In this document: one piece after another, positions 20,817 through 46,953 of the stretch | Numbering within the stretch: position 1 is the first letter of the stretch | Layout: every line of letters begins with the position of its first letter | Source: Elusimicrobiota bacterium | Lineage (GTDB): Bacteria; Elusimicrobiota; Elusimicrobia; Elusimicrobiales; UBA9959 | Assembly (NCBI GenBank): GCA_026388155.1 | Contig: JAPLKI010000018.1 | Coordinates: 1-64,000, forward strand | Length of the DNA: 64,000 nt | Direction: 5' to 3' | Notes under the pieces: model-generated | What the model was told of the DNA's origin: nothing | The model's database searches: none | The model's input: only the letters and a program-made list of their open reading frames with translations | Translations under genes and position numbers: made by a program

Positions 20817-20854
20817 AAAGATTTAGGTTTATAGGGGAATTTTTTAACGAGTTC

Positions 20855-20991
20855 GCGGGTCCCGCCGGGGGAGTGGGTTCCAAAAACCAGGGTCGGGGCA
20901 CACCGTGCCCGCCCTTCCCTTCCTCGGTCTCGCCGCTTGCGCAAGTCTCGGCCTCCGGAGGGTTTTTTTCACCCACACCCCCGTCACCCGC
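20855..20991 (-). ncRNA. Structured element C, copy 2
   Basis: Pairings: 20855-20860 with 20986-20991; 20867-20871 with 20978-20982; 20873-20878 with 20971-20976; 20896-20901 with 20905-20910 (GGGCAC/GTGCCC); 20917-20923 with 20957-20962 (CCCTTCC/GGAGGG, one bulge); apex CTTGCGCAAG. Relative to copy 3 the paired bases change together (GGACAC/GTGTCC and CGCTTCC/GGAGCG there). Here it stands without element E. The sense is assigned by alignment with copy 1. Confidence 0.65.
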
Positions 20992-21031
20992 TCCATTGAT
21001 ATGTTTGCCGCGTTTAATATTCAATAATTTA

Positions 21032-21066: not shown

Positions 21067-21146
21067 AGGTTATAAGATAATTTTCTTAACTTCAGCCTTC
21101 AGTCGCTGACAACACCATAGGCCAGCGACAGGCCAGTGTCACAGCC

Positions 21147-21803
21147 CTAAGCCTTCAGCCTGCATTCGTTGGCCAGGAGCTCTTCGGCTTCGGCGGTGAG
21201 CGTATTCAGGATGTTTTCAAGTTCCGCGGCTTTAGCTGCTACATCGTCGGTTTCCGCCACGGCAAACGGCGCGCCGTAAACGGCCTGGATGCGGCCGAAG
21301 GGGAGGGGGAACTGGTAGTGGTCCCAACTGGGGAGAATTTTCTTTTTTGAAAGGGCGCACGCGACCGGTATCAGCGGCGCGCCTGCTTTCTGCGCCAGAT
21401 ATACCACGCCGGGCTGCACCTTGAAGACGGGCCCGCGGGGGCCGTCGGGCGTGATGGCTATTGAGTAGCCGCCGCGCGCGGCTTTTATCAGGCCGCGCAG
21501 CGACATAAAACCGCCCGAAGTGGTGGACCCGCGGACAAAAGTAAAGCCGAAGCGCTTCAGTATGCGGGCCATATATTCTCCGTCTTTGCTCTTACTGACC
21601 AAGCCGCAGATACTGCGGTTCCTGTGCAGGTAAATCATCAATACTTCTTGGCGGTGCCAGAGGGCATAAATTGCCGTGCCGGGGTGGTTTTTTATGCCTT
21701 TTATTGAAATTTTGGAGGTAAGGCCTATCAGTTGTATGTAAAGCCAGGCAAGCCAGGAAAGCAGGGTGTGTGCGGGTGAGCGTTTGTAAAGAAGCTCGTT
21801 CAT
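21147..21803 (-). CDS. Lysophospholipid/lipid A acyltransferase family protein (DUF374)
   Basis: 218 residues. The segments ALWHRQEVLMIYL, LVSKSKDGEYMARILKRFGF, VRGSTTSGGFMSLRGLI and ITPDGPRGPVFKVQPGVVYLAQ match the DUF374/LpxL-related acyltransferases. One hydrophobic helix near the N-terminus anchors it in the inner membrane. The usual HX4D motif is replaced by the WHR...DGE arrangement of this subfamily. It likely adds a secondary acyl chain to lipid A or its Kdo-linked precursor. It ends the first lipid A block and follows lpxI across a word-repeat spacer. Confidence 0.82.
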   Translation of the reverse strand: MNELLYKRSPAHTLLSWLAWLYIQLIGLTSKISIKGIKNHPGTAIYALWHRQEVLMIYLHRNRSICGLVSKSKDGEYMARILKRFGFTFVRGSTTSGGFMSLRGLIKAARGGYSIAITPDGPRGPVFKVQPGVVYLAQKAGAPLIPVACALSKKKILPSWDHYQFPLPFGRIQAVYGAPFAVAETDDVAAKAAELENILNTLTAEAEELLANECRLKA

Positions 21804-24177: not shown

Positions 24178-24268
24178 TATTGTTTGCCATAGGCCGTATG
24201 CTTTAGGCCATAAGCTTTTAAGGAATTCCTTAACAAGCCTATGGCGTATGGCTTAAAGCGTATGGCAA
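24178..24268. repeat. Word-repeat hairpin spacer with perfect 16-base apex palindrome
   Basis: Left arm TTGCCATAGGCCGTATGC, right arm GCGTATGGCTTAAAGCGTAT; the apex TTAAGGAATTCCTTAA (24218-24233) is a perfect palindrome related to the AAGGAGTTCCTTAT apex of other spacers. Between lpxC and fabZ. Confidence 0.65.
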
Positions 24269-25111
24269 TCATAGCGCTCTTGCGCTATGATTTACTAACA
24301 GTTTAGCAAAATTGACATTGCCCGCGTGTCCGGGACGTTCGGCTTCGATAATAAGGCCTTCAAAAAATAAACCTGTCAGCGCCAGGTCGCCGATAAGGTC
24401 CAGCAGTTTGTGCCTGGCGAATTCGTCGGCGAATCGCAGGCCGTTATGAGCGAGTATTTCCGTTTCGTCTATTAACACGGCGTTTTCAAGCGAGCCGCCT
24501 AAAGCGAGGCCCGCCGCTTTCAGGGCTTTTATTTCGTGGCTGAAGGCAAAGGTGCGCGCCGGGGCTATTTCTTTGAGGTATATTTCGGGTGAAAGGCAAA
24601 ACTCCACCGCCTGCCTGCCCACCAGAGGGTGCGGGTATTCATAAACCAGCCTGAAGGCAGCGCCGGAAGCCGCGGGTTCGGCGCGGTACCTGGTTTCGCC
24701 TTTTGAAAATTCCACCGGCGCGGCCAGGCGCGCGTATGAGCGCTTCGAACCGGGCTTGTCCCTCATGCCGGCTTCAAGCAGGGCTTTGGCAAATGGCAGG
24801 GCCGAGCCGTCCATGGCCGGAGGTTCCAAGCCGGAGATCTCAATATCCAGATCGTCCACGCCAAGGCCCGCGGCTGCGGAAAGCAAATGCTCAACAGTGT
24901 AAAGAATGTTTTTTCCGTCGCCTATATTGGTGCCGCGCGCCGTGCCGCTTACATTTTCAAGCAGGGCCGGTATGGGGCTGGAAAAAAGGGGGCTTATAAA
25001 GCGTATGCCTGATGAGCCGGGGGCGGGCAGGAAAGTTACGCGTGCCGGGGTTCCCTTGTGAAGGCCCGTTCCTTCAAGGGTTATTCTATTTTTGATCGTT
25101 TTTCGAAACAT
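24269..25111 (-). CDS. lpxC: UDP-3-O-acyl-N-acetylglucosamine deacetylase LpxC
   Basis: 280 residues, family length. The zinc enzyme that commits the pathway to lipid A. Zinc ligands are present: H75 (TVEHLLSA), H234 and D238 (FARHKLLDLIGDLAL). E74 and H262 (GHAGNVNF) fit the catalytic pair. IEISGLEPPAMDGSALPF is a family hallmark. The start overlaps the end of lpxD by 26 bases. It is not fused to fabZ, unlike in Bacteroidetes and some others. Confidence 0.95.
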   Translation of the reverse strand: MFRKTIKNRITLEGTGLHKGTPARVTFLPAPGSSGIRFISPLFSSPIPALLENVSGTARGTNIGDGKNILYTVEHLLSAAAGLGVDDLDIEISGLEPPAMDGSALPFAKALLEAGMRDKPGSKRSYARLAAPVEFSKGETRYRAEPAASGAAFRLVYEYPHPLVGRQAVEFCLSPEIYLKEIAPARTFAFSHEIKALKAAGLALGGSLENAVLIDETEILAHNGLRFADEFARHKLLDLIGDLALTGLFFEGLIIEAERPGHAGNVNFAKLLVNHSARAL

Positions 25112-26144: not shown

Positions 26145-27352
26145 ATCGGGCTTTCCTCAAGTTTTTTAATAAGTTTATCTGTCAGGTCAACCGCGGAATG
26201 GCCGAAAAGGATATTGCGCTTGTCCACTACCACGCTCACGCCCTCTTTCACCGCCAGCTCTTTAAGAGCCAGATAAATCCGGCCGAGTATTATCTCGCTT
26301 TTGTGGGTTTCATATTCCAAAAGTTCCCGCTCGGTCCGGTGCTGGGCTTGGCGCAGTTCTTCTTCTTTTTTTGAGAGTTCCGCTTCTTTGGCGGTTATAA
26401 CGACATCAATTTCCGCGGCTGAGGTCGAAACGGAAAATTTGAAGTAATTCAGCGGCACGCGACTGATGCCGGGCATGTCAATGCCGGCAAGTCCGGGCTG
26501 GCCGGTCGACGGGAACACCTCGTCCGCAGTGGAGGAGGCGGTGGAAATAAGGATGGCATTTACCGCGATGGTTGGTCCATTGATCTGCCCCAGGGCGGTG
26601 CCACTGGCGATGTCAGCAGTTGATATGTTTACCTGAACCGCCCCTGTTGAAATCTGTGGGGTTGCGGCTTTAACTGTTCGTGTTGAAAGTTGTACGGCGG
26701 CGGTGGAAGTTGTGACACTGGTCTGTCGCGGGCCATTGGCGCTGTCCGCGACTGTGACACTGGCCTGTCGCGGGCCACTGGCGCTGTCCGCGACTGAAAT
26801 TTGCGGGTTCGCGGCTTTAGTTGTTTGTGTTGAGGATTGTACGGCGGCGGTGGAAGTGGCAATCTGAGGATTTGCGTCGTTAGCCGTTTGTGTTGAAATC
26901 TGCGGGCTTGCATTTTCGGCGGCTTTGGCGACCGCGGCGGATATTTCCTCAGCCTGGCGCATGAGGCCGGGCAAAGTAAGGGCGAATGCGTGTTCCTGTT
27001 TCAGTTTTGCTATGTCGGCTTTCAGGGAAAAAATGGCCTGTTTTTTAATATTCAGGGCGTCTTCTTTCTTTTTTATTTCGGTTAAAAACTCCTCCCTGGC
27101 GTTTGAGGTGCCGGAAAAGTCCTTGAAAACACGGTCTATATCGACGTAACCTATGGTGCCGGATTCTCCCTTGTTTTCTTCAAGTGAAAGTTCAAGCGCC
27201 GCCGCGCGTGGGGCGGAGAAAAGGGTTAGCGCGGCACATGCGAATATCATAACGGCCGCGCGAATAAAAAACAATACAAATGTGTCCGGATATTCCCTCA
27301 ATTCGCGGTTATTCGCACGTCCTTTCATTCTCATCCCCGTTCGCATGTCCAT
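26141..27352 (-). CDS. OmpH/Skp-like periplasmic chaperone with a repeat insert
   Basis: 403 residues, over twice the usual 160-190. The N-terminus has a long hydrophobic stretch with AxA (SAPRAAALE near 52), so it is exported; the exact start among three close ATGs is uncertain. The Skp-like core is split: GYVDIDRVFKDFSGTSNAREEF and a coiled coil (about 70-125), then a 150-residue Ser/Thr/Ala/Gln-rich insert (about 130-290) with repeats such as STAAVQSSTQTTKAANPQIS and SVTVADSANGPRQ, then a second coiled coil ending KEGVSVVVDKRNILFGHSAVDLTDKLI. It likely escorts outer-membrane proteins to BamA next door. A nucleotide motif of the insert, CTGGCGCTGTCCGCGAC, recurs in bamA. Confidence 0.82.
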   Translation of the reverse strand: MDMRTGMRMKGRANNRELREYPDTFVLFFIRAAVMIFACAALTLFSAPRAAALELSLEENKGESGTIGYVDIDRVFKDFSGTSNAREEFLTEIKKKEDALNIKKQAIFSLKADIAKLKQEHAFALTLPGLMRQAEEISAAVAKAAENASPQISTQTANDANPQIATSTAAVQSSTQTTKAANPQISVADSASGPRQASVTVADSANGPRQTSVTTSTAAVQLSTRTVKAATPQISTGAVQVNISTADIASGTALGQINGPTIAVNAILISTASSTADEVFPSTGQPGLAGIDMPGISRVPLNYFKFSVSTSAAEIDVVITAKEAELSKKEEELRQAQHRTERELLEYETHKSEIILGRIYLALKELAVKEGVSVVVDKRNILFGHSAVDLTDKLIKKLEESPI

Positions 27353-34720: not shown

Positions 34721-37246
34721 ATGGAAAGCATCGTATTCTTCGGCAAAGGCGGCATAGGCAAAAGCACCATCGCATCGAATATGTCGGTGATACTTGCATT
34801 CGGCGGACGGAAGGTGCTGCATGTCGGCTGTGACCCGAAGATGGATTGCTGCCTTTCTCTTATGCGCAGACACATACCGCCCTTTGCAGACAGGTCTGGC
34901 GGCGGCAATGAATCCGCTCTGCGCAAAAGCATTTACCCATCCGCCGTCAAAGGCGTTTACTGCATAGAAGCCGGCGGCCCCCAGCCCGGCGTGGGCTGCG
35001 CGGGAACCGGCATCGGTTCCATGCTCGACGCCATGAAAGACGGCGCCCTGATGGAAAAAGACGGCTACGACGCCGCGGTCTTTGACGTGCTGGGAGATGT
35101 GGTCTGCGGGGGGTTTGCCGCGCCGCTCAGGCGGGGCTTCGCGAAAAAAGCCGTTATTGTGACCTCGGAAGAGATCCTTTCCCTTTACGCGGCCAATAAA
35201 CTGATAATGATGATAAACAACTATGCGCGCAACGGCGTTTATCTGGCGGGCTTGGCGGTGAACGCCAAGAGCCCGGACGGCGTGCGCATGGCGGAGGATT
35301 TTGCCGGCATCGTTAACACCCGCGTGCTGGGCGTGATACTAAGGGACCCCGCCGTGGCCGCGGCTGAGCGCGAACATCGTCCCGCGGCGCTGGCCTTCCC
35401 TAAAAGTGATTTTGCCCTGCGCGCGGTGCGCCTTTGTTCAGCCCTAAGGACTGCCGGCGCGCCGGATACCCCGCCGCGTGCCATGCCGGACGCAGAGTTT
35501 TTTGTCTTCGCGGAAGGGCGACGGGAACAAAACAAGTTACAAGTCTCAAGTCACAAGTCTCAAGTCACAGGGCGCGGGTCACAGACCAAAGCGCACAGAT
35601 CAGCCGTTTCTCTTTTTGAGGCGGCCGGTTTTAAACCTTCCGGTATGGAAGGCGGCCAGATAATATGCGATTGGAAATCTTCAAAAGGCGTTTTCAAGAC
35701 CGTAATCGCTCCGGCTTCCGCCGCGCAGGAAGGCATGCCCCGCTTTTCCGACTGGGCCGTATGCTTTCATCCATCGGCAGGTAAAGACCCCGGAGCCTCT
35801 AACGCCGAACTGTTGGACGCGGCGGCGCAATTATCCTCCCTGCGTTTTGACGACATGCTTTCAACTTTTACGGGCATGAAAGATTTTTACGGTGCCCTGA
35901 TAGCCTTCGGCGGCCCGGAGGATAAGACTCTGGCCGCCCCCGACACGCCCAAACGCCCGCACATCGGTTTCGGGCAGTGGCAGCGTTTCATTTTCCCCGG
36001 CGGAGGGGTGAACGCCCGCATACCGCCCGGTTCCGTTATGGTGGAACACGGAGACAGCGAATGCCGTTTCAGCGGCTGCGCGGGCGGGGCGCTGGGCATA
36101 TTCAGCGAGAACGCCGGACTGAAATGTTCCGGCAGACAGTTCCGCGGGCCGTTGCTGCCGAAGAGCGACGCGTTCGTGGTCAACACAGAATTCCAGGCCC
36201 ATGACGCCGTTTTTGGCGACGAGGCTAAGATGCTTGAATCGCTTTACCGCGCGGCGGACCAGGCCGGTCCGGGGGGGCTGGTGGAATTTTACGTTGGCTG
36301 CTCCCCCATATTGTTATCCAGCGACGTCCGCGCTTTTGCGCGCAGGGTTGAGCGCGAGAAAAATGTGAAGGTGCAGCTTGAGAACTATAACAGTTTTGGT
36401 GAGCACGGCCCCGCCAAAGCCGCCGTGCGCGTGGAGTTTATGGCGTCCAGGCTGTCACGCGGGAAAGCCGGGAAGACGCGCGACGTCAATCTTATAGATT
36501 TCGGCGAATCAGCCGGCCGCATGTCCGCCCTGCTTGCCGGCCTGGAAATATCGGCGGGAGAACCGGGTCCGGATTTTTACGGAGCAGCGCGGGCTTCGCG
36601 CTTACAGGTGCTCTCAGAACCCGACACGGTGCTTGGACCCGCCTTCGACAAAGCCGGCATGAAGTGGATACTGCCGCCGGCGCCTTACGGTTTCGCCGGC
36701 ACCGACGCCTGGCTTGCCGCCGTAGCCGGCGCGCTGGGCTGGAAAAAAATAACGCCCGGCCCTTCAGCGGCCCAAAAGGCGGCCGCGCTGGAGCTTTGGC
36801 GCCGCGCCCGGGGTTACGCGGTTTGTTTCGTACTCGCGGCCGAAGAAACGGGCCTGCTGTCCGGAAGTCCCGCGCTCAGGATGGTGCCGGTGCTGCCGGT
36901 GTTGGCGGAAGCCGGGTTCGAGGTCCGCCTTTTTATAACGGGCGGCGGCTCTTATGGAAAGACCGGGGCGGATATTTCCGCGCTGAAGGCTTCTCTGCCG
37001 GGAAGGCGTTTATCCGCGGAATTCTTTAAAACGCCGCGGGAACTGGCCGCCCTGCTGCGCTCGGGCCCCGCGCTTCGCCTGGTCTATTCGGACATACGCA
37101 GCGACCCGCGCGTGGTTTCAGCCGGAAAAACCCCCTTTTCCGCGGCGCTTTTCGAGCCGGGCTATGACGGCGCGCTTGAAACCCGGCGCCGCCTGCTTGA
37201 ACTTTGCGAATGGAATTTTAATGAACGCTACCTCTCGTCAAAATAG
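34721..37246 (+). CDS. NifH-like / NifD-like fusion protein of a nitrogenase paralog
   Basis: 841 residues. Residues 1-265 are a NifH/BchL-type ATPase: P-loop GKGGIGKST (K14), GCDPKMD, and both bridging 4Fe-4S ligands, C93 in GPQPGVGCAGTG and C129 in DVLGDVVCGGFA. The Arg after the first ligand in NifH (CAGRG) is Thr here. Residues about 300-841 resemble nitrogenase component 1: ECRFSGC, and VEFYVGCSPILLSSDV matching the NifD Cys154 region. The linker (about 267-305, KLQVSSHKSQVTGRGS) is encoded by a spacer-type word repeat, so two genes may have fused. Dinitrogen fixation is unlikely since no nifE, nifN or nifB is seen; a role in reductive cofactor or metabolite synthesis is inference. Confidence 0.85.
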   Translation: MESIVFFGKGGIGKSTIASNMSVILAFGGRKVLHVGCDPKMDCCLSLMRRHIPPFADRSGGGNESALRKSIYPSAVKGVYCIEAGGPQPGVGCAGTGIGSMLDAMKDGALMEKDGYDAAVFDVLGDVVCGGFAAPLRRGFAKKAVIVTSEEILSLYAANKLIMMINNYARNGVYLAGLAVNAKSPDGVRMAEDFAGIVNTRVLGVILRDPAVAAAEREHRPAALAFPKSDFALRAVRLCSALRTAGAPDTPPRAMPDAEFFVFAEGRREQNKLQVSSHKSQVTGRGSQTKAHRSAVSLFEAAGFKPSGMEGGQIICDWKSSKGVFKTVIAPASAAQEGMPRFSDWAVCFHPSAGKDPGASNAELLDAAAQLSSLRFDDMLSTFTGMKDFYGALIAFGGPEDKTLAAPDTPKRPHIGFGQWQRFIFPGGGVNARIPPGSVMVEHGDSECRFSGCAGGALGIFSENAGLKCSGRQFRGPLLPKSDAFVVNTEFQAHDAVFGDEAKMLESLYRAADQAGPGGLVEFYVGCSPILLSSDVRAFARRVEREKNVKVQLENYNSFGEHGPAKAAVRVEFMASRLSRGKAGKTRDVNLIDFGESAGRMSALLAGLEISAGEPGPDFYGAARASRLQVLSEPDTVLGPAFDKAGMKWILPPAPYGFAGTDAWLAAVAGALGWKKITPGPSAAQKAAALELWRRARGYAVCFVLAAEETGLLSGSPALRMVPVLPVLAEAGFEVRLFITGGGSYGKTGADISALKASLPGRRLSAEFFKTPRELAALLRSGPALRLVYSDIRSDPRVVSAGKTPFSAALFEPGYDGALETRRRLLELCEWNFNERYLSSK
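35531..35582 (+). repeat. Word repeat inside the nifHD-like gene
   Basis: Tandem variants of ACAAGTCTCAAGTC encode the linker between the NifH-like and NifD-like parts. The same word forms the spacer at 31585-31726 and the 3' end of the gene at 47732. Only one arm is present, so no hairpin forms here. Confidence 0.7.
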
Positions 37247-38507
37247 GTTTAAAAAGGCCTTTAATATGCCCTACCAGCTGGGCATTTACCTGGCCGCCAA
37301 CGCGGTGTCGGACTGCTGCGTAGTGGTGGACGGGCTTAACTGTGTTATGCCGAAAATAGATTTTCTGGCCGGCAATCACGACCTGAATTCCACTTTGCTT
37401 TCGCCGGAGGGCAGGCACAGGGTCATTTGCACTATGACGGGGCCGCTGCCGCAGGGGAATAACCCGGAAAAAAAATTTTCAGCTCTGCTTGAAAGCGTGG
37501 CGGGCGCCGGCGACTTCGCCGTGATAATGGCGACCGGGCTGCCGTTTTTGAAACTGGCCGGCATGGATTATGAGGGTCTTGCCGCCGGAGTAAAAAGCGG
37601 CGTCCCGGTGGTGGACGTGCCGGCCAGATCTTTTGAGGCGGACTGGCTTGAAGGATACGCCTTGTCGCTTGACGCTTTAGCCCGCGCGCTGCCGGCGCGC
37701 AAGGTCAAAAAAAGAAAGCGGTCTGTGGCGCTCGTGGGGTATTTAATGGACCGCAATGAGCGCGACCACGCGGCCAATATCGAAGAACTTGGGCGCCTGC
37801 TTGAACTGTGCGGGCTGGAACTCTCCTGCGTTTTCCCTTCGGGCGGCAGTTTCGGGGACTTGTCCCGCGCGCTTGAGGCCGGGGTAATTGTTTCCCTGCC
37901 TTACGGGCGCAAGGCCGCCGCCCGGCTTGCCGCCAGGTCCGGCGCGGTACTTGTGGAAACAGGCCTGCCTCTGGGGCTTCAGGGTACCGCGCATTGGCTT
38001 GAAGCTGTGCGGCGCGCCGCGGGTATGAAGGGAGGGCTTCCCCCGGCCGTGAAAGTTCTGGAAAAACAGGCGGCCAAAGCCATAGCTCCGGCCCTGGGAG
38101 AGCTGGCCCACCGCAGCATAATTTACGCCGGAGATCCTTACCTTTTCGCGGCCTTCGCCGCATACGCCGCGGAACTTGGGATGCGCGTTAGCTGCGCCCT
38201 CATAGATTCTTTCATCAGGCCGCTTGACAGCGTCCGGCTTCCGGGAGAACTGCTGTTCTCTCCGGACACGGAAGAAGCGGCGGCGGTTGTAAAGGGCCTG
38301 GGCGGATATTTAAAACCGGACCTGGCGGTGGGAAATTCCTTCGCGGCTACGGAAGGCCTGTCCGCCGGCCTGCCTTTAACCGAACTGGGTTTTCCGTCGT
38401 ACGGGCATCATTGTCTCAGCGACGAGCCGTTTTTCGGCTTCGCGGGAGCGCGTACGCTGGCCGGCCGGCTGTTCAACTGTCTCCGATCGGAAAATCCCCG
38501 TGAGTAA
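37221..38507 (+). CDS. Nitrogenase component-1-like protein (NifK/NifE-like partner)
   Basis: 428 residues from MNATSRQ; a start at 37266 (MPYQLGIY) is also possible. The gene overlaps the end of the NifHD-like gene, so the two are coupled. AANAVSDCCVVVDGLNCVMPK and HRVICTMTGPLPQGNNPEKKF resemble the first P-cluster-side Cys region and the following loop of NifK/NifE. The position that carries the third Cys in NifD/NifK reads MATGLPFLKLAG with Thr instead. VALVGYLMDRNERDHAANIEELGRLL is the typical second-domain strand. It should form the catalytic component with the NifD-like half. Few conserved cysteines suggest one cluster shared with the partner. Confidence 0.78.
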   Translation: MNATSRQNRFKKAFNMPYQLGIYLAANAVSDCCVVVDGLNCVMPKIDFLAGNHDLNSTLLSPEGRHRVICTMTGPLPQGNNPEKKFSALLESVAGAGDFAVIMATGLPFLKLAGMDYEGLAAGVKSGVPVVDVPARSFEADWLEGYALSLDALARALPARKVKKRKRSVALVGYLMDRNERDHAANIEELGRLLELCGLELSCVFPSGGSFGDLSRALEAGVIVSLPYGRKAAARLAARSGAVLVETGLPLGLQGTAHWLEAVRRAAGMKGGLPPAVKVLEKQAAKAIAPALGELAHRSIIYAGDPYLFAAFAAYAAELGMRVSCALIDSFIRPLDSVRLPGELLFSPDTEEAAAVVKGLGGYLKPDLAVGNSFAATEGLSAGLPLTELGFPSYGHHCLSDEPFFGFAGARTLAGRLFNCLRSENPRE

Positions 38508-46386: not shown

Positions 46387-46436
46387 CTTCCGCAATGGGA
46401 CACCTGAAACCTTAAACAGCGGCCTGTCCTATGTCG

Positions 46437-46575
46437 GCGCGGGGCCTGCCGGGGAGCTGGAACGCAAAACCAGGGTCGGGACACACCGTGTCCGCCCTTC
46501 GCTTCCTCGCCCTCCGCGCTTTGCAAGCGTCGGGCTCCGGAGCGTTTTGCTTATCCAGTTCCCCGTCACCCGCGC
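46437..46575 (-). ncRNA. Structured element C, copy 3
   Basis: Pairings: 46437-46443 with 46569-46575; 46451-46455 with 46560-46564; 46457-46460 with 46555-46558; 46464-46470 with 46544-46550 (GCAAAAC/GTTTTGC); 46479-46484 with 46488-46493 (GGACAC/GTGTCC); 46500-46506 with 46539-46544. Against copy 2 the arms change in pairs while the ACC apex and CCAGGGTCGGG, CCGCCCTTC blocks stay. It starts about 50 bases after the end of the radical SAM gene. Confidence 0.68.
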
Positions 46576-46757
46576 AGATTATAGTAGCGGCTTTGCTATG
46601 TTATAGATAATCCCGCCCTTATTGATGATACGGCGCGGTTGCCCGCCCATCGGCCGCAACCGGCTTATACAAAACAACTCTTATTCATTATTGGCGGGTA
46701 ATTATGCTTTACCTTAAAAGGGCGGGGACACCATATAAAAAAATCAACAGAGCATTT

Positions 46758-46953
46758 GGTTGCCGGTGGGTTCCCTTAGCGCTCCTTATAGGGTTTAATC
46801 CCGTGGTCTGGAGCGAATCCTTATCATTTAGGACGGCGAGGACCGTTCAAGCCGCCCCGCTATGCGGGCCGGCGCGTTCCGGAGCCGGCGCAAGACCACG
46901 GGATTCTTCTTCAAAACCCGGTCTTGGAGCGCTAAGGGAATCTGCCGGCAACC
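46758..46953 (-). ncRNA. Structured element E, copy 2
   Basis: Outer stem 46758-46766/46945-46953 (9 bp), then 46771-46785/46926-46940 (15 bp, perfect), 46791-46796/46914-46919, and 46797-46809/46893-46905 (13 bp, perfect). Internal hairpins match copy 1 in position but not in sequence: the stem written GTCTGAAAG/CTTTCAGAC in copy 1 is GCCG.CCCGC/GCGGG.CGGC here. On the minus strand it reads ...GACCGGGTTTTGAAGAAGAA and TTGAACGGTCCTC like copy 1. It ends 31 bases from the stop of the deacetylase-like gene. Confidence 0.72.

Follow-up and report, generated by a model that had tools for sequence, protein, structure and literature searches.

We describe here a short repeated element of groundwater Elusimicrobia, present in three copies in the 64,000-nucleotide stretch of DNA that was analysed (the window), which is probably a non-autonomous, non-coding mobile repeat, recognised through its folded single strand. 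Its letters change in matched pairs that leave the two-armed fold intact. Evolution thus preserves the folded single strand, which is most likely RNA. Selection that keeps the fold while the letters drift points to an agent that recognises the strand in its folded form and acts on it. An earlier interpretation, made from the letters of the window alone (the sequence-only reading), had proposed that the element is likely to be a dispersed repeat structured at the RNA level. The further copies, the covariation and the one-strand wobble bias presented below support this proposal, in which the choice of RNA over single-stranded DNA is one that we infer.

R1, a covariance model built from 12 copies and run with its filters off, matches the window at exactly three cores: copy 1, of a divergent subfamily, at 245-385 on the plus strand (85.0 bits, E 5.7e-15); copy 2, the element under study, at 20851-20995 on the minus strand (146.7 bits, E 3.6e-27); and copy 3 at 46435-46577, also on the minus strand (153.0 bits, E 2.1e-28). 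The next match, on the reverse strand of copy 3, has an E value of 0.05. Since copies 2 and 3 helped to train R1, the match to copy 1 (E 6e-15) is the one that the training did not influence. The sequence-only reading had placed all three copies correctly in position and strand (R1 E 2e-28 to 6e-15), but had drawn their boundaries too tightly, as the model reaches about 4 bases further out.

The core is about 140 nt long, and the strand that we call C corresponds to the minus strand at 20855-20991. From 5' to 3', this strand is predicted to form a closing stem (GCGGG/CCCGC), a shaft of several helices and two arms, with a GGA bulge on the 3' side. In copy 2, all on the minus strand, the 5' and 3' halves of the closing stem would lie at 20987-20991 (GCGGG) and 20855-20859 (CCCGC), the shaft helix GTGGGT at 20971-20976 with its partner ACCCAC at 20873-20878, arm 1 at 20917-20962, and arm 2, with the apex CACGGTGTG, at 20889-20915. 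Arm 1 carries GA dinucleotides that face each other in two internal loops (GGA...GA opposite GA...GA), forming G-A/A-G mismatches. These two tandem G-A loops hold the best-conserved unpaired letters of the element (82-95%), and only seven paired positions reach 90% conservation.

Covariation is the evidence for the fold. When 12 copies were aligned by sequence alone, RNAalifold predicted 47 pairs, 17 of which are changed on both sides. A fit of 76 copies to the model gives 94.9% paired cells over the 47 pairs, and double changes in 47 of 47 pairs, counts that the fit to the structure somewhat inflates, the 17 double changes of the 12-copy alignment standing apart from it. The covariation score of these 76 copies is 0.579 against 0.167 after shuffling, a value that none of 500 shuffles reached, in a test that is inflated by the relatedness of the copies; with the partners slid, the score was at most 0.119. 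A second set of 99 copies, gathered from GTDB contigs with an exact pattern of arm 2, gave 94.5% of cells paired, 41 of 47 pairs doubly changed and a score of 0.570 against 0.146 shuffled, its arm-2 counts being biased towards invariance because the set was chosen on arm 2. The covariation effect far exceeds both this selection bias and the inflation due to relatedness. The switched stem pairs of copies 2 and 3 from which covariation had been claimed, GGGCAC/GTGCCC versus GGACAC/GTGTCC, CCCTTCC/GGAGGG versus CGCTTCC/GGAGCG, and GTGGGT/ACCCAC versus CTGG..GCAAAAC/GTTTTGC..CCAG, are all present in the sequence. Their reading as covariation, which stems that failed to covary in further members would have overturned, is upheld by the 76 copies, in which every pair covaries, and by the 99 that were scanned separately.

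The same alignments reveal which strand is constrained. G-U combinations outnumber A-C combinations by 113 to 27 and by 165 to 43 in the two fitted alignments. Because the model itself favours G-U, the recount was limited to copies at least 85% identical, whose alignment is not in doubt, and it gave 33 G-U against 11 A-C, with 144 double changes. The folding energy is lower on the C strand in 128 of 139 copies, with means of -87.0 kcal/mol for the C strand and -78.5 kcal/mol for its reverse; a sequence-only strand test in one large cluster offered only 9 comparable pairs. A cruciform in double-stranded DNA would give no such asymmetry, and the C strand is therefore constrained as a single-stranded form. 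A covarying fold with strand asymmetry, the feature of functional RNAs that was looked for, was thus found. For the constrained strand, RNA would be a simpler reading than single-stranded DNA, although the asymmetry alone is no proof of it, since G-T is tolerated better than A-C in DNA also.

In the 3.36 Mb genome, R1 finds 44 copies at E<1e-4, and a separate search of about 370 kb of stretches returned the same copies as the genome-scan list; at least one further core, beside the Y1 gene on C20, was missed by the genome scan. About 767 kb of genome stretches were read for this analysis. The hundreds of copies per genome that had been extrapolated from the window were too many, the count being in the dozens, while the claim of a dispersed repeat, which a lack of further copies would have undone, is borne out both here and in 27 of 61 related genomes. 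All 27 fall within one family of Elusimicrobiales; no cores were found in the sister family among these 61 genomes, nor outside that one family in 149 genomes drawn across the phylum. The named GTDB records that carry the element are mostly labelled Elusimicrobia or Elusimicrobiales, and the rest 'bacterium'. No match to the arm-2 pattern was found in IMG/VR viral contigs. Rfam release 15 gave 0 matches in the window at gathering thresholds, and a permissive search gave only sub-threshold matches, to copy 2 and two other copies; the Rfam RNA library holds no such family. We found no description of Elusimicrobia repeats or structured RNAs in the open-access literature.

Other features share the window with the three cores. 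Another short repeat family, at 21093-21152 and 26711-26803, has many copies on both strands in the congeners G001 and G002. A further dispersed repeat at 24185-24295 has copies in G002 and G010, and a dispersed repeat of about 190 bp at 46759-46953, adjoining copy 3, recurs many times, at 74-88% identity, in each of the two congeners. At 34721-38507, an 841 aa gene with NifH-like and nitrogenase component 1-like parts comes before another component 1-like gene and radical SAM genes.

Orthologous sites were compared with the congeners at three loci (copy 2, L029 and L034), and occupancy by the element varies. At the copy 2 site, the orthologous gap, which separates the S1 gene from the adjacent one, holds no element in either G001 or G002. 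At L029, the same stop codon in G002 is accompanied by a different repeat, the absence of the element being clear in G002 only, and at L034 the element and one whole extra gene are both missing from G001. Two non-orthologous cores from different species, L029 and L057, are 96% identical in a match that stops at TGGAG and GAAC; orthologous genes of the window region are mostly 77-88% identical between species. The ends of the element are imperfectly inverted and its unit boundaries differ between subfamilies. Comparison of these boundaries, with L293 and L294 as the G001 copies, fixed no terminal inverted repeat or target duplication family-wide, and no transposase could be tied to the element by examining the Y1 loci and the distribution of Y1 genes and cores across genomes. 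Mobility is what dispersal and turnover together suggest.

Some copies belong to a larger repeated unit. Around copy 3 this unit of about 265 bp (46387-46653, minus strand) comprises an upstream module, an AT-rich stretch, the core and a 3' tail, and it recurs in G001, where five places share 83-84% identity along alignments of about 235-255 bp. The module of copy 3, GGGCGGG-N-GGGCGGG, lies at 46611-46648 on the minus strand, about 34 bp before the core and in the same orientation. Genome-wide, 9 of 11 matches to GGGYGGG-N-GGGYGGG are followed by a core in the same orientation, with AT-rich, promoter-like sequence between them; in the remaining 2 the core also follows, interrupted by another structured repeat, and the backwards control pattern gave 0. 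This arrangement would suit small non-coding RNA genes that serve the host, have been dispersed by duplication and have their own promoters in the GGGYGGG/AT-rich module, and so would the conservation pattern, since the most conserved letters are unpaired, in the tandem G-A loops, and the stems vary freely, as in functional RNAs. However, at the three sites compared the copies are not shared with the congeners, the module was not seen before the cores examined in genus g4, and no clear common terminator was seen, so that we regard host RNA genes as an unlikely, if credible, explanation.

Cores also harbour other repeats. In L322 and L325 a second structured repeat (ACATAGCGGATGGGAGG...GGGAAACCACGGGAGGGTTTCC), nested in the shaft, stands in place of the arms, and a hairpin repeat, AGGCCGTCTG...ATAGGCC, occupies the same internal loop in three cores and the arm-2 apex in a fourth (L041, L042, L094, L007).

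The genes used to assess placement were called with a simple open-frame method, which may err in individual cases. By these calls, 38 of the 41 copies examined in this genome are intergenic. Convergent gaps hold 13 of them, tandem gaps 23 and divergent gaps 2, the background numbers of such gaps being 61, 256 and 67, respectively (Fisher p 0.005 for convergent versus divergent). Copies thus avoid promoters. In a wider set, the 3'-side gene points towards the element in 105 of 156 cases, and the nearest such gene often ends 0-60 bp away. It is tempting to see here a cis-acting element of gene 3' ends, namely a terminator, an RNase barrier or an mRNA stabiliser, as proposed for REP sequences, and the preference for convergent over divergent gaps would agree with it. 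Nevertheless, most mRNAs would then carry the reverse strand, with its poorer fold and fewer tolerated wobble pairs, and in tandem gaps the antisense orientation exceeds the sense one by 16 to 7, which makes this function improbable. Some copies are also close neighbours: 80 loci include 13 pairs whose cores are no more than 100 bp apart, all 13 head to head with their 5' ends facing, 8 of them spaced by 28-48 bp, and several of the spacers are alike across loci.

These pairs recall BIMEs, and like the element, REP, BIME and REPIN sequences are extragenic palindromes, often in inverted pairs; the foot of the element, GGAGCGGG...CCCGCGAA, is similar to REPs of Pseudomonas, for example TGTGGGAGCGGGTTtACCCGCGAA (PMC2817692). 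As this genome has four Y1 transposase genes, one could propose that the element is of the REP/REPIN type and that a Y1 (RAYT) enzyme spreads it as single-stranded DNA. We consider this very improbable. The element is about 140 nt long with two arms, against a REP hairpin of 20-40 nt, and has no GTAG/GTGG head, the bases before its stem being mostly TGGA or CTGC. It does not adjoin the RAYT genes: inverted copies do not flank them, only one core lies in the four Y1 loci, about 950 bp away, and other palindromes, such as AAAAGGTAGCGTCTACCTTTTT, flank the Y1 genes instead. Nor is RAYT presence linked to copy number, as no Y1 match was obtained for G032 and G035, with 45 and 48 cores, or for G025 and G029, which also have cores, and G006 has 9 Y1 matches and no core, all of these absences being uncertain in draft genomes. 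Finally, GC skew indicated no replication-strand bias in the orientation of the copies (19 versus 18). The four Y1 (RAYT-like) genes, at L104-L107, are flanked by palindromes of their own, of the AAAAGGTAGCGTCTACCTTTTT type in at least two. This palindrome was also tried as an end of the element and was rejected, as it lies upstream of a core in only 3 of 12 copies.

One copy does match PrrB/RsmZ weakly (17.5 bits, below the gathering score of 44), which might suggest a CsrA/RsmA sponge RNA acting through GGA-containing loops, but this genome and every element-bearing relative searched lack a CsrA gene, and the sponge is thereby ruled out.

We return, then, to a mobile repeat with a recognised fold. 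Like MITE- or bcr-type repeats, the element is short and proteinless, with many intergenic copies whose presence varies at orthologous sites (the three loci above). By description, its nearest known kind would be the bcr group: bcr1-bcr18 of the Bacillus cereus group are likewise short, intergenic, numerous and without protein, some families being MITE-like and others structure-conserved and transcribed (PMC3446304). In contrast to bcr, the element is confined to one Elusimicrobiales family, has a larger, two-armed fold that covaries in every pair, and forms head-to-head pairs. ERIC and other bacterial stem-loop repeats, imperfect palindromes of about 130 bp between genes for which we know of no enzyme, also resemble it by description, in a different lineage.

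In this mobile repeat the C strand folds as one piece, with its closing stem, long shaft and two arms, and we propose that the folded single strand is RNA. An enzyme supplied in trans may then copy or move the element by means of this fold and the ends TGGAGCGGGTG ... CAGGACCCGCGAAC, and the copies near gene ends would be survivors that did little harm. More tentatively, we could speculate that the element's own folded RNA is the form in which it spreads or acts, in which case it would be a SINE-like structured RNA family, often arranged head to head, whose copies admit other structured repeats into their loops while the fold is kept.

Most intergenic repeats of bacteria are simple palindromes linked to a DNA transposase, and the phylum in which this one occurs has few cultured members. 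In this element, a two-armed fold of 47 pairs, every one of which covaries among the 76 copies, together with conserved non-canonical loops, gives the signature of a functional RNA to something that behaves as a mobile repeat. With many natural variants in each genome, the family would offer a test of whether RNA structure can drive the spread of repeats in bacteria.
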